Shown one piece after another: positions 228-20,751 of a stretch of DNA of 29,824 nt. Position 1 is the stretch's first letter. Every line of letters starts with the position of its first letter. The position numbers and the translations under genes are program-made. The DNA comes from a virus, in IMG/VR virus record IMGVR_UViG_3300030060_000731, positions 1-29,824 of that record; one strand, given 5' to 3'. The notes beneath the pieces were generated by a model, which searched no databases, was not told the DNA's origin, and saw nothing but the letters and a program-made list of their open reading frames with translations.

Positions 228-256
228 TGAGGGCCGCTTACGCGGCCTCCCTTTTG
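228..256 (+). terminator. Intrinsic terminator for the plus-strand gene
   Basis: GGCCGC (232-237) pairs perfectly with GCGGCC (242-247) around the loop TTAC, and a T tract at 252-255 follows shortly after. It lies 24 bases past the stop of the plus gene ending at 204. The same DNA encodes the last codons and stop of the opposing minus-strand gene. In the plus sense it looks like a rho-independent terminator; in the minus sense it lacks an immediate U run. The T tract is short and separated from the stem by a few C residues, so efficiency is uncertain. Confidence 0.6.
232..247 (-). other. GUAA-tetraloop hairpin containing the stop codon
   Basis: Read on the minus strand this is GGCCGC-GTAA-GCGGCC, a six-pair perfect stem closed by C-G over a GTAA loop, which fits the stable GNRA tetraloop class. 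The TAA stop of the gene ending at 238 lies wholly inside the loop. An 18-nt element here (230-247) is identical to 20484-20501 at the end of an unrelated gene. A role in mRNA stability, termination or recoding is possible but inferred. Confidence 0.6.
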
Positions 257-714
257 TTGACCTTGCAGGTAACTCGGCAGTGCAAGCATTGGATGTTGTA
301 TCCGCCAGCCCATACAACACTCAGCTTGACGTAGTGACCATCGATCAACCAAACACCAGAAAAGTTTTCGCCGTAGATAATTTCGAGTTGGGTAGAATCA
401 ATGTCATCGATGCCGTGCTTTTGAAACTTCTTGGCAATCCGCAAATTTCGTTCAGCGTGGTCGCGCACGGTTCGTTTGGTTTCGCGCTCAATATGCTGCG
501 CGATGGTGTGCTGGTTATCCACTTGGGTTTGCTGAGAGGCGATTCTGTTCAACTCCTCATAGTAATCTTGGGTATGACCGGGAAGCTCTTCTCGAAGCTC
601 AGCAGCCATTTTTCGATACCACTCTCGATTTGCTTTTACGTCTTCAGGAATCGCTTCGATGCTTTTGGCGTCTGCCTCAGCAAAAGCTGCGGTAAGTTTT
701 TCTAGTAAGGTCAT
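238..714 (-). CDS. Unrecognised accessory protein, 158 aa
   Basis: I do not recognise this protein. The first two thirds (about residues 1-105) are highly charged and predicted helical, with Glu/Lys/Arg-rich heptad-like stretches that suggest a coiled coil. The last third is beta-like and hydrophobic and includes a cysteine-rich stretch, CLHCRVTCK, near residues 143-151. There is no signal peptide or membrane segment. The ATG at 714 is preceded by GGAG seven bases upstream, which supports this start. A sigma70-like promoter with a short leader lies immediately upstream, so the gene is its own transcription unit. Its promoter, leader and 3' hairpin match those of the gene at 19645-20493, although the proteins are unrelated. 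A plus-strand reading of the same DNA lacks a convincing ribosome site. An early or accessory role is inferred from the dedicated promoter. Confidence 0.75.
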   Translation of the reverse strand: MTLLEKLTAAFAEADAKSIEAIPEDVKANREWYRKMAAELREELPGHTQDYYEELNRIASQQTQVDNQHTIAQHIERETKRTVRDHAERNLRIAKKFQKHGIDDIDSTQLEIIYGENFSGVWLIDGHYVKLSVVWAGGYNIQCLHCRVTCKVNKREAA

Positions 715-720
715 GGGCCA

Positions 721-778
721 TCTCCGTTGTTGATGGCACCTATTATACTGATTACCGTGTCGTTGTACACATTTATTT
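721..778 (-). promoter_or_regulatory. Promoter and leader P1 for the 238-714 gene
   Basis: On the minus strand there is a consensus -10 TATAAT (742-747). A -35-like TGTACA (764-769) sits 16 bases upstream. The leader carries GCCATCA (731-737) and CAACGGAGA (721-729), which holds the ribosome site. Upstream is AAATAAATG (770-778) and inside the spacer is CGACACGG (755-762). All these blocks recur in the same order at 19561-19638. Confidence 0.75.
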
Positions 779-16401: not shown

Positions 16402-18125
16402 TATCTAAATCTCATGTTTTCTGGCTTAAATGCGGCTGGGTTAAACATGGGCGGCTGTCTTGGCGGTGCGCCGCCTTGAACCGCTGGCGGAGGTGCTACC
16501 GCTGCCTGTTGTGTGTCTTTTTTGCTTTCAAACTGAGCGGCAAATTCTTCTGGAGACTGCCTCTTAAATTGATTTGCGCCCTGAAAACCCATGCCGCCAA
16601 GGTCGGTTACATACTTGCCCGTAAGAGGATCAAATGTAGCGGTAAGGCCAAAGTTTTTTGAGGCGTCGTTGGTGTTGAATTGATCCAACAATCCTTGATC
16701 TACTTGATACTGGTTATCAGGCATTACATGAGCAGCCTGAGCTGGCAATGCGGCTGCGCCCGATGAATCAAACTGGCCCTGCCCCATCTCATTGCCAATG
16801 TTAAAATCATCCATATAAGGTGTTGCGCCCATTTCCGCCGCGCCTTCCGTCGTAGGCATCACACCATACGCTCCCATTTCTGGCTCGTAAGAGCCAACGC
16901 TACCGCCAGTGTAAGGAACCCCGCCTGCACCGACTCCTGCCGATACGTTTGGATTTACGCCTGTTGGCACGTCTGCTGTAGCGCCCGTTGTAGCACCACT
17001 ACCTTGTTGGCCCACCTGACCCATTACTTCTTCGGTAATCTGCTTACGCAGCGCCTCAACATCAATTTCTGCTGGAATTTGACCTTGCAATGACGTTATC
17101 TGCTCCTGAAGGGGGTTAAGTGCAGATGAAATGTCGGTTCCGCGCTGTTCAGCAATTGATTGAGAAAGGCTTGTGAGGTCTTCTTGGCTCAAAGCGCCAG
17201 TCTGCAATGCCTCTATCATTGAAGCGAGGTTTGCTCTTTCGCTTGTGGCGGAGTCAACCGCCGACTGAAACTGAGCCGTTTGGTCGTTTATTGTTGCCAG
17301 TTGATTTTGAATTGATTCAATTGGTAAAGAGCCAAGGTTTTCTGCTACACCGCCAATTTGTTGCTCTAAAGCCGATACAAGGTCTGCCGTTTCGCTCCTT
17401 ATCGCCTCAGACTGTGCTGCATTGCCCGAATCTACGTCGGTATACAGGGTTTCTAGCTGCTGGTTTAAAGAGTTAATTTCACTCTGAGTTGCGTCAGCAG
17501 AACTCTTTTGGGCCTCATTAAGCTGGGAATAGTTTCCTTCAATGACGCTGTTAATGTCTGTGAGGTCGCCTGATAAAGATCCAATTCTGGTTTTCAGGTC
17601 GCTTATCAAAGAACCTTGGCGGTCACTAAGGTCACCAATAGCAGCGGTCTGAGCTTCTCTGACAAGCTTGTCGCCTTCTTCAATTTGACGAGCCAAAGCC
17701 GCTCGCTCATCTAACCCAGCTTGTCGCAGGTCTAGCGTTTCTGCGTCAACGCCTCGGCGCAGCTCGTCAATCCGACCCTCTAAAGCCGTAGTTAAATCAG
17801 ATCTCTGAGACAACGCGGCGTCTTCAGATGACGCCAGTTCTTCTCTCAAAGCGTCTCTAAGTGCGTCAATCTCGGTTTGCCTAGCCAAGCTAGCCGCTTC
17901 ATTTGCAGCGGTTTGCTCAGCCATAATGTCTTCATATTGCTTTGCAAGAAGATCCTCTGTGGACGGCTGTGTAGCATCCAAGGTTCTCATTGTTGGCCCA
18001 ACGGGGTCAGCCCTTGTGCCACGGTCATAGACTGGGCGCTGCATCAAATAGCTGCTCAGATCAGCATAGGGAGACGCCGCACTGCCGTACTCGTCCTGCG
18101 CTCTGCTTAAATCACTTTCTGCCAT
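16401..18125 (-). CDS. Long coiled-coil protein, 574 aa
   Basis: After an 80-residue start rich in Ser, Tyr and Pro, residues about 85-360 form an almost uninterrupted coiled coil of acidic and Gln/Ser/Ala heptads (segments such as EIDALRDALREELASSEDAA and LSQSIAEQRGTDISSA). A Gly/Thr-rich linker (about 363-430) follows, and then a compact C-terminal region with FGLTATFDPLTGKYVTDLGG. The end is Pro-rich. Long trimeric coiled coils are usual in tail fibres, and length-setting helices in tail-associated proteins, so either is possible. The absence of another fibre gene makes the fibre idea attractive but unproven. The ATG at 18125 is preceded by GGTGA, and the gene ends in a TAATG junction. Confidence 0.6.
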   Translation of the reverse strand: MAESDLSRAQDEYGSAASPYADLSSYLMQRPVYDRGTRADPVGPTMRTLDATQPSTEDLLAKQYEDIMAEQTAANEAASLARQTEIDALRDALREELASSEDAALSQRSDLTTALEGRIDELRRGVDAETLDLRQAGLDERAALARQIEEGDKLVREAQTAAIGDLSDRQGSLISDLKTRIGSLSGDLTDINSVIEGNYSQLNEAQKSSADATQSEINSLNQQLETLYTDVDSGNAAQSEAIRSETADLVSALEQQIGGVAENLGSLPIESIQNQLATINDQTAQFQSAVDSATSERANLASMIEALQTGALSQEDLTSLSQSIAEQRGTDISSALNPLQEQITSLQGQIPAEIDVEALRKQITEEVMGQVGQQGSGATTGATADVPTGVNPNVSAGVGAGGVPYTGGSVGSYEPEMGAYGVMPTTEGAAEMGATPYMDDFNIGNEMGQGQFDSSGAAALPAQAAHVMPDNQYQVDQGLLDQFNTNDASKNFGLTATFDPLTGKYVTDLGGMGFQGANQFKRQSPEEFAAQFESKKDTQQAAVAPPPAVQGGAPPRQPPMFNPAAFKPENMRFR

Positions 18126-18841: not shown

Positions 18842-19459
18842 CTAGGAAGCTACGTCGAAGCCAGTGATTTCGATAAGGAAACGTCCAGCAGTATAAGTCG
18901 CGTCACCCGTGCCTTGGCTTACCAGATACAAATATTGGTCAGCAGCGATGTCGCCACCAGCAACCATTGTTCCAGCAGAAGCAGCGCCAGCGTTGATGAT
19001 TTGCGTTTCGGTCAGGTCACCGATTGCGGTGTCGTTGACACCAGTTCCTTCGGTTGCAGAGAACAAGTCGATGTCTGTACTACCGCCTGCGGGTGTTTCG
19101 ACACAGGTCATGGTCACGCCGAATACGCTGCCTTGATTGGCCGTTGTCACCCTGCCTATAAATGCAACGCCAGAGCCGTCCTTACCAATGATGTCGCCAG
19201 CGGTGCCGCCGTCCTTCAAACCAGTGAGGTCGATCATAATCGTGGTTTTCACGACGTTGACGTTAGTTGTTACGTCACTCTTCAAGCGAGTTACTTGCGT
19301 GACATATACAGCAGCGGTTCCCTCGATACCTGCGCTGCCAGTGGCTTCGGTTGCCATTTTGTCACCGCTGGTAACGGTAATAGTGCCGTTAGCTGCTTTT
19401 GAAATTTGTTGAAACCCGTTCTCTGATCGGACTGGGCCGTTGAAAGTTGTTGTAGCCAT
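18842..19459 (-). CDS. Beta-rich capsid-associated or decoration-like protein, 205 aa
   Basis: The chosen start is the ATG at 19459, preceded by AGGAGATCAAC, an excellent ribosome site; a frame opening at 19480 adds seven residues without such a site. The protein is rich in Thr, Gly, Ala and Val, starts ATTTFNGPVRSENGFQ, and has a middle segment with TTIMIDLTGLKDGGTAGDII, which is beta-like. It has no Cys motif beyond a single CVET. I recognise the type as a common virion protein beside capsid genes, with no proven role. It is the first gene after the plus-strand cassette and has a dedicated minus-strand promoter about 60 bases upstream. Confidence 0.65.
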   Translation of the reverse strand: MATTTFNGPVRSENGFQQISKAANGTITVTSGDKMATEATGSAGIEGTAAVYVTQVTRLKSDVTTNVNVVKTTIMIDLTGLKDGGTAGDIIGKDGSGVAFIGRVTTANQGSVFGVTMTCVETPAGGSTDIDLFSATEGTGVNDTAIGDLTETQIINAGAASAGTMVAGGDIAADQYLYLVSQGTGDATYTAGRFLIEITGFDVAS

Positions 19460-19516
19460 GTTGATCTCCTGTCGTGGCAAATGTCAGACGCGGGATTGCG
19501 GCTGTCAGGAGCTTGT

Positions 19517-19560: not shown

Positions 19561-19638
19561 AAATAAATGCTGTTTGGGGTGTACACACACTTGCACATCG
19601 ACACGGGATGCGTATAATAATAGCCATCACAACGGAGA
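19561..19638 (+). promoter_or_regulatory. Promoter and leader P2 for the 19645 gene
   Basis: TTGCAC (19591-19596) and TATAAT (19613-19618) are spaced by 16 bases. Flanking blocks are AAATAAATG (19561-19569), TGTACA (19580-19585), CGACACGG (19599-19606), GCCATCA (19623-19629) and CAACGGAGA (19630-19638), the last containing the ribosome site. The same blocks occur in the same order at P1. The spacing between blocks differs, so this is not simply one long duplicated segment. Confidence 0.75.
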
Positions 19639-19644
19639 ACGATG

Positions 19645-20493
19645 ATGGAAAAGGCGAAATACGAATTAGATGTGGAATGGCTTGGTACTCGTTTGCGTGA
19701 TTACGCGGCAGCTAAAGAGCGTGCCAAAAAAGCTTGGCGCACCCGTAAGGAAGCGGTCATGGCTAAGATGAACGCTGGCGTAAAACCGACTGTAGGGAGC
19801 AACCGCAAAGGCGAGTTTACGGGCTTTCACGCACCGCATGACGGTTATGTGCATGAATGGGTAGAGGGCGAAAAAACCTTCCGCAAGCAGTTCATGGGCG
19901 GACAATTTTTGCCAATCGACAAAAGTCGAGACTCTATGTTTGAAAACGAGTTGGGCGAACTAAAGACGCACAGATTTCGCAACGTGTCGGGGGAAAAATT
20001 TGACGCAGTCGAAAGGGCGCTCCTCAACAGTCGCAGCAGCTACGCTTTGGACATAAGAATTGGAAGAGGCAAATCTTGGGAGGATCGAGAGGGAAATTGG
20101 CATTCTTACACTTACTTGACAGACGCGCCCAACGACGTTGCTGAACACATCGAAATGTTTTTCATGGGCGAAATTTACGAGGCCCGTCAAGTGGCAGAGG
20201 AGAAGCGCCAATCGGAACACGAGGCTGCTGAGTCATGCCCTGCTGGTCGCGTTGTTGTTACTGGCGAGGTTCTGAGCGTAAAACTGCAAGACGGTTACTA
20301 CGGCAGCACATGGAAGATGCTGGTCAAAGATGACCGAGGCTTCAAGGTGTGGGGCAGCATCCCATCATCACTTGACGCTTCTCGCGGTTGCCGAGTGACA
20401 TTTACTGCCGCTATCGAACCATCAAACGACGATGACAAGTTTGGTTTCTACAAGCGCCCCACCAAGGCGGAAATACTAGAGGTGGCCGCGTAA
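19645..20493 (+). CDS. Putative OB-fold nucleic-acid-binding protein, 282 aa
   Basis: The second ATG (19645) lies seven bases from GGAG, as in the P1 gene, so I prefer it to the ATG at 19642. The N-terminus has a strongly basic helix (DYAAAKERAKKAWRTRKEAV). The middle is mixed and Phe/Lys-rich. The C-terminal 80 residues have alternating strands with RVVVTGEVLSVKLQDGYYGS, then KMLVKDDRGFKVWGSIPS and FGFYKRPTKAEIL. This resembles an OB-fold segment seen in unassigned phage and bacterial proteins. A nucleic-acid-binding role is inferred. It is transcribed against all its neighbours from its own promoter, and its stop codon sits in the loop of a hairpin. Confidence 0.7.
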   Translation: MEKAKYELDVEWLGTRLRDYAAAKERAKKAWRTRKEAVMAKMNAGVKPTVGSNRKGEFTGFHAPHDGYVHEWVEGEKTFRKQFMGGQFLPIDKSRDSMFENELGELKTHRFRNVSGEKFDAVERALLNSRSSYALDIRIGRGKSWEDREGNWHSYTYLTDAPNDVAEHIEMFFMGEIYEARQVAEEKRQSEHEAAESCPAGRVVVTGEVLSVKLQDGYYGSTWKMLVKDDRGFKVWGSIPSSLDASRGCRVTFTAAIEPSNDDDKFGFYKRPTKAEILEVAA

Positions 20494-20499
20494 GCGGCC
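20484..20499 (+). other. GUAA-tetraloop hairpin containing the stop codon
   Basis: GGCCGC (20484-20489), loop GTAA (20490-20493) and GCGGCC (20494-20499) form a perfect six-pair stem. The stop TAA (20491-20493) is in the loop. No U run follows, so it is not a normal terminator. Downstream lies the ribosome site of the next gene (GGAG at 20503-20506), so the fold could influence coupling between the two genes. It matches the element at 232-247 in sequence and in its relation to the stop codon. Confidence 0.65.
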
Positions 20500-20512
20500 C
20501 TTGGAGCAGATG

Positions 20513-20710
20513 ATGATTAAAGAATCAAGAACTATGGATCTGGTTGAAATCGCTAACTCGCTGAGCAACGACGATGTGTGTGAGCTTATCAATATGTTGT
20601 CTGACCGATTGACCGTATGGACAAAAGACAGCGATGGAAGCTCGTGCCTCAATGAAGTGGCGGACGCTTGCATGAACGGATGTGCGGTTCAATTGAATCT
20701 TGAAGAATAA
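20513..20710 (+). CDS. Unrecognised small acidic protein, 65 aa
   Basis: The ATG at 20513 is best placed, with GGAG six bases upstream; 20510 is possible, and a TTG at 20501 would lie too close to the hairpin. The protein is acidic and helical, with DLVEIANSLSNDDVCELINM and DRLTVWTKDSDG, ending CMNGCAVQLNLEE. It has three Cys and no recognised domain. It forms a two-gene operon with the OB-fold-like gene and ends at a strong terminator. A partner or regulatory role is possible but not shown. Confidence 0.65.
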   Translation: MIKESRTMDLVEIANSLSNDDVCELINMLSDRLTVWTKDSDGSSCLNEVADACMNGCAVQLNLEE

Positions 20711-20740
20711 AAAAAGGGGGCATAAAGCCCCCCCTTTCTT
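20709..20740. terminator. Bidirectional intrinsic terminator
   Basis: GGGGGC (20716-20721) pairs with GCCCCC (20727-20732) over an ATAAA loop. A run of A precedes the stem and TTTCTTTT follows it, so each strand sees a hairpin followed by U residues. In the plus direction it ends the two-gene cassette right after its last stop; in the minus direction it lies about 12 bases after the capsid stop, with a seven-base U tract. Confidence 0.85.
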
Positions 20741-20751
20741 TTGCTTGGTTT

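Follow-up and report, generated by a model that had tools for sequence, protein, structure and literature searches.

Integron cassettes form arrays of promoterless small open reading frames, each with a hairpin-forming attC site on its 3′ side. Intrinsic terminators can overlap stop codons, and phage morons are accessory genes that carry their own promoter and terminator. In the Cluster K mycobacteriophages, short repeats termed SAS/ESAS are found before the start codons of many small genes (PMC3203893). Two other reports concern boundary or linker sequences of phage modules and the relaxed homologous recombination that phage annealases carry out (PMC3945230, PMC2327257). Literature searches showed no published description of the stop-codon hairpin joint reported here. 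This 16-nt element is probably (at a rough probability of 0.7) the standard joint between the genes of phage cassette arrays, where it would form a compact RNA 3′ end and also a seam for DNA exchange.

Two stop-codon hairpins in a marine phage fragment

The window, i.e. the whole stretch of DNA analysed, is a 29.8-kb marine phage fragment whose terminase has relatives in pelagiphages and in phage DSL-LC04. Its structural genes are on the minus strand. Gene 2 is found on the plus strand, in a short cassette island situated between the capsid gene, which it adjoins, and a Mu-gpT-DE RNA element (Rfam RF03012, 63.7 bits; 19457–19510, minus strand). The features are as follows.

232–247, minus strand: stop-codon hairpin copy 1, TAA at 238–240, the 18-nt identity covering 230–247
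238–714, minus strand: cassette gene 1, 158 aa, ending in REAA*
742–769, minus strand: related promoter of gene 1, TGTACA-N16-TATAAT with CGACACGG
19591–19618, plus strand: array-start promoter before gene 2, TTGCAC-N16-TATAAT with the spacer motif CGACACGG
19642–20493, plus strand: cassette gene 2, 283 aa, phrog_4750 / phrog_4265 (annotated as unknown function), ending in EVAA*
20484–20499, plus strand: stop-codon hairpin copy 2, class A GGCCGC-GTAA-GCGGCC, TAA at 20491–20493, the 18-nt identity extending to 20501
20510–20710, plus strand: small gene after gene 2, 66 aa, its start about 10 nt past the hairpin
20708–20743, plus strand: array-closing terminator, A-tract/GGGGGC-ATAAA-GCCCCC/T-rich

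The 16-mer of both copies is GGCCGCGTAAGCGGCC, and the identity reaches 18 nt with the trailing CT. A scan of the window with up to three mismatches gives 4 matches, i.e. the two copies each read on both strands, where 0.32 are expected; no third copy is found on either strand at this threshold. The original prediction of two identical 18-nt copies at gene ends is thereby confirmed in coordinates, strands and identity, and the two genes do end in Ala-Ala-stop and are unrelated, as had been proposed. The predicted structure is also borne out: both copies fold with UAA as the last three bases of a GUAA loop, compatible with GNRA, on a six-pair stem, with free energies of −16.3 and −20.2 kcal/mol (z = −2.7 and −3.8). 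A U-tract in the sense direction is absent after both genes, again as predicted. Read on the plus strand, copy 1 (231–248) has CCCTTTTG after it, and its score is that of a terminator for the convergent gene ending at 204. No family match was found for gene 1, and PADLOC gave no match on the window cassettes.

The promoter set said to be common to both genes is present as TTGCACATCGACACGG-N5-TATAAT at gene 2 and as the related TGTACAACGACACGG-N6-TATAAT at gene 1, and promoter and leader of the two genes take the form TTGCACA-CGACACGG-N-TATAAT...CAACGGAGA. The promoter 16-mer TTGCACATCGACACGG occurs exactly in at least 119 IMG/VR stretches, and the TTGCACATCGACACGG-N5-TATAAT family is also seen in L301–L416. 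The spacer motif CGACACGG looks like a phage- or regulator-specific element; GTGTCG is sometimes found downstream of it, making an inverted repeat (L014). The CGACACGG promoter was considered as part of the joint and rejected. It stands upstream of only 10 of 132 joints (control 0) and is thus a feature of part of the carriers only.

Spread of the hairpin and compensation of its stem

The search for the 16-mer at other gene ends, which the original prediction had proposed, gives exact class A matches in at least 118 IMG/VR stretches. Among the matches listed, 115 of 130 distinct class A contexts have an open reading frame of at least 40 aa that terminates at the loop TAA, 95 of 130 show a ribosome-binding site and start codon within 50 nt downstream, and 90 of 130 display the full joint layout, an open reading frame end with a Shine-Dalgarno sequence and start just after. 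The distance from the class A element to the next start is 8–44 nt (median 14), and the conserved part surrounds the preceding stop. Many contigs carry two or three copies, all oriented alike and 200–500 nt apart, and L039, L080, L474, G053 and G057 have at least three joints each, forming arrays of open reading frames with a hairpin after each. The original placement of the hairpin at the ends of two genes was correct, but it missed the wide spread, a second compensated class and the cassette arrays.

In GC-rich DNA a TAA will often be a stop in any case, which makes the association with open reading frame ends partly automatic and calls for controls. With a GTGA loop on the same stem, 116 loci are found; 33 of 90 contexts end open reading frames and 10 of 90 are joint-like, and this version was rejected as an equivalent, its contexts being mostly unrelated. 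The stop-in-loop geometry is fixed. Hairpins with a 6-bp stem and a 4-nt loop at open reading frame ends number 126 at offset −1, the position that puts the stop codon in the loop, versus 17 or fewer at any other of the 32 offsets; in loci picked by the promoter alone there are 13 at offset −1 versus at most 5 elsewhere.

The loci chosen by promoter also revealed a second class, B, GGCGGC-GTAA-GCCGCC, which is as common as class A, with at least 118 loci, and has the same layout (joints in 76 of 115 contexts among the matches listed). The two classes are one base apart on each arm, C-G in one and G-C in the other, and the stems are compensated: the switch is a silent Ala codon change, GCC/GCG, matched by the noncoding arm. 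Nine upstream gene families occur with both classes, A or B depending on the phage. A full scan for hybrids with the broken pair gives 40 and 35 loci, of which 2 of 36 and 3 of 34 are joint-like, none convincingly. Paired stems are in joint context in 166 of 245 cases versus 5 of 70 for broken stems (Fisher p = 5.8e-21), the paired figures being samples among the A and B matches listed (at least 118 loci each) and the hybrid scans complete. The check by covariance and conservation that the original prediction had called for comes out in its favor, with compensated A/B stems and broken hybrids rare at joints. The missing hybrids could in part reflect copying of the whole element by descent.

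These comparisons bear on two explanations at the level of the protein end. One is codon coincidence, i.e. GC-rich Ala-Ala-stop ends that fold by chance, for which the partly automatic association speaks, as does the finding that 13 of 19 contexts in bacterial genomes also end open reading frames. However, the 3′ arm is conserved although it is noncoding, joints seldom have a broken arm even where the Ala-Ala-stop coding is the same, and the GTGA version is seldom joint-like; the broken-stem comparison refutes this explanation, to which practically no weight can be given. The other is selection on an xAA C-terminus as a ClpXP-type degron tail, with the hairpin secondary. Joints do encode xAA* nearly always, but some variants end in AS* or GA*, and the conserved noncoding arm and its compensation are left unexplained, so that this explanation is very improbable.

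The hairpin had been expected to stay with the homologues of both genes. The outcome is mixed: gene 1 homologues, found by protein search alone, keep it in 11 of 13 cases, but gene 2 family members often have a decayed 3′ arm when their cassette is the one immediately ahead of the terminator of the array. Thus the hairpin belongs to the joint and not to the protein.

Rarer paired variants are GGCCTC-ATAA-GAGGCC, GGCAGC-TTAA-GCTGCC and AGCCGC-GTAA-GCGGCT, and a further one, AGCGGC-TTAG-GCCGCT, carries a U-tract. Extension of the stem by flanking nucleotides was considered; class A gives no support, and the signal in class B may be lineage structure. Around the 5′ arm of class A joints (−5 to +2) the sequence tends towards AAGGAGG. 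This stretch resembles a Shine-Dalgarno sequence, stands immediately ahead of the stop and could keep terminating ribosomes in place to re-initiate at the following gene. Relatives of the 66-aa gene stand after class B hairpins in L442, L488 and L509.

Gene neighbors and breakpoints at the joint

Gene order is broken at the edges of the hairpin. Among 167 joints, the 15 that follow gene 1 family members have 15 different downstream genes, and pairs of joints are similar upstream only in 165 cases, downstream only in 43 and on both sides in 9. Where upstream genes are 90–97% identical, 15% of hairpin pairs still have the same next gene, versus 81% at nearby non-hairpin ends. Across comparisons the downstream neighbor is kept in 6–15% of hairpin pairs versus 74–84% of control pairs, which are small non-hairpin gene ends matched for upstream identity, size and neighborhood.

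By position, pairs similar upstream only show an identity of 0.88 up to the hairpin and of 0.48 and then 0.27 past it, the residual identity being due to the shared C and ribosome-binding site. Pairs similar downstream only show 0.26–0.42 before the hairpin and 0.86 immediately after. Since identity switches at both edges, the leader belongs to the downstream cassette, with which it moves, and the exchange point is within the hairpin. The breakpoints fall right on the edges of the hairpin and are strong support for a recombination seam, one of the roles originally suggested. As in a phage boundary sequence, a short conserved sequence is found where the flanking genes change, with breakpoints at both edges. 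By these alignments the joint is the exact spot of gene swaps between phages, and this in many aquatic phages.

The closest relatives of the window phage hold different cassettes at the capsid-side spot. The islands compared adjoin capsid genes that are 89–100% identical. In a 99%-identical relative (L122) gene 2 is present alone, without the 66-aa gene, and only CAGGCAC separates its stop from the terminator; the window has gene 2 together with the 66-aa gene, the latter between the hairpin and the same terminator. Another island has a chimeric gene 2 with a different N-terminal half (L125), a third has two other cassettes (L038) and a fourth a gene 1 relative plus another gene (L162).

Two loci show probable remnants. 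On the reverse strand of L007 (4175–4228) two hairpins are 38 nt apart, with a sequence like a ribosome-binding site and a codon-end remnant between them, and in L164 a hairpin is followed by a lone 5′ half-element right after a gene 1 homologue. These are likely scars of deleted cassettes.

A U-tract, as required of an intrinsic terminator, directly follows the stem in 25 of 264 copies, mostly where no gene follows: 16 of 54 copies without a next gene versus 9 of 210 with one (p = 6e-7). A 3′-end or terminator role is supported where a U-tract follows, but inside arrays the U-tract is normally absent. Protection of mRNA 3′ ends, another of the roles originally suggested, would be a possible function. 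In the G057 contig (24338–25162; L622), AGCGGC-TTAG-GCCGCT plus seven T forms a stop-in-loop intrinsic terminator that closes a class B array. The same sequence with seven T is also present in L407, L410, L457 and L488.

The element might act purely in RNA, as a stop-embedded terminator or 3′-end stem selected gene by gene, with the shuffling being ordinary phage mosaicism. The compensated, conserved structure, the U-tract forms at array ends and the position of the stem directly before the next ribosome-binding site agree with this possibility, which is a real but clearly weaker one: neighbors are kept far more often at nearby non-hairpin small genes than at hairpin ends, and across unrelated genes a near-invariant sequence is conserved, not the structure alone. 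Against the seam reading, phages are mosaic at gene boundaries generally, and the hairpin could be a mark of such boundaries without causing the exchange.

Exact breakpoints, together with an open reading frame plus 3′ hairpin arrayed behind one promoter, also recall an integron-like or other site-specific system, in which an enzyme would recognize the folded hairpin and move cassettes as IntI does with attC. This appears unlikely, as the GTTRRRY core is not enriched (7 of 98 joints versus 7 in shuffles; 3 of 88 versus 11), a tyrosine integrase (PF00589) is found in only 3 of 39 carriers, and joints are formed with two different stem sequences. A search of the 39 carrier records, which are fragments, for integrases and Rad52-type annealases gave no recombinase shared by the carriers, the annealase being present in 2 of 39.

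Among named phages, the joint is found only in Phage C72C1 (L300), which has an annotated Sak-like annealase. The second cassette of this phage ends in a different stop-in-loop hairpin, GGGGC-ATAA-GCCCC (17858–17873). The terminase relatives of the window are the pelagiphages of the HTVC023P/027P group, 023Pt_psg01 and DSL-LC04; no such hairpins are found in the first 49–50 kb of HTVC027P, 023Pt_psg01 and DSL-LC04. The hairpin was considered as a host feature and this was rejected: across 84,980 bacterial and archaeal species an extended 19-mer has 18 matches, and only one of them shows the array. This one is L170, a contig of 12.9 kb that was binned into a MAG and is as long as the phage contig L126. 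The other matches look like chance occurrences in genomes rich in GC. One recurrent joint-bearing cassette family (L316, L411, L528) is an ArdC-type anti-restriction protein (PF08401 + PF18818), suggesting that the arrays hold counter-defence genes.

A putative cassette joint and its relation to known systems

In the cassette-joint reading the unit would consist of a leader, a ribosome-binding site, a small open reading frame and a stop codon in the loop of a GC-hairpin. Such units would be joined end to end, with one phage promoter where the array start is identified and a terminator at the array end. In RNA the hairpin may provide a compact, context-independent 3′ end that separates the cassette from the next ribosome-binding site; the stem without a U-tract would let transcription pass, and with a U-tract following it would become an intrinsic terminator. 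In DNA the near-invariant 16 bp may offer a short identity for annealing-type homologous recombination between co-infecting phages. Selection for the RNA 3′-end role would keep the element at every joint and so make cassette exchange possible. The sequence data appear to fit an action of the hairpin in RNA and in DNA alike.

More tentatively, and with the odds against it, this could be a dedicated cassette-exchange system of tailed phages. The 16-nt hairpin, in at least two compensated classes, would then fuse stop codon, transcript end and recombination joint, unrelated aquatic phages would trade small accessory genes as standard parts, and a phage or host factor might recognize the folded joint.

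A defined 16-nt joint with natural compensated variants and countable swaps makes the shuffling of accessory genes directly testable. The joint is also a search tag for phage accessory genes and offers a natural model for parts that insulate neighboring cistrons from their context.

As with SAS/ESAS (PMC3203893), the hairpin has one orientation, accompanies different gene families and has an inverted-repeat part that differs by lineage. However, SAS precedes start codons, whereas the hairpin joint contains the stop codon and, in class A, lies 8–44 nt from the next start rather than immediately before it; ESAS also tends to stay with a gene family, whereas at the hairpin joint neighbors swap. 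The array of small open reading frames with a hairpin site after each resembles an integron, but the joint has no attC core motif, no integrase common to the carriers and only 16 bp, and its loop holds the stop. Terminators likewise have a GC stem at the gene end, and morons are likewise accessory genes inserted among structural genes with a promoter and terminator of their own, but most copies of the joint are without a U-tract and have another gene next. Modules are exchanged at a short sequence common to phages, as with phage boundary and linker sequences (PMC3945230, PMC2327257); by comparison, the hairpin joint is structured, compensated, stop-bearing and reused at many joints. Thus it fits the idea of a phage boundary sequence, and what is new is a joint that is structured, compensated and stop-carrying.
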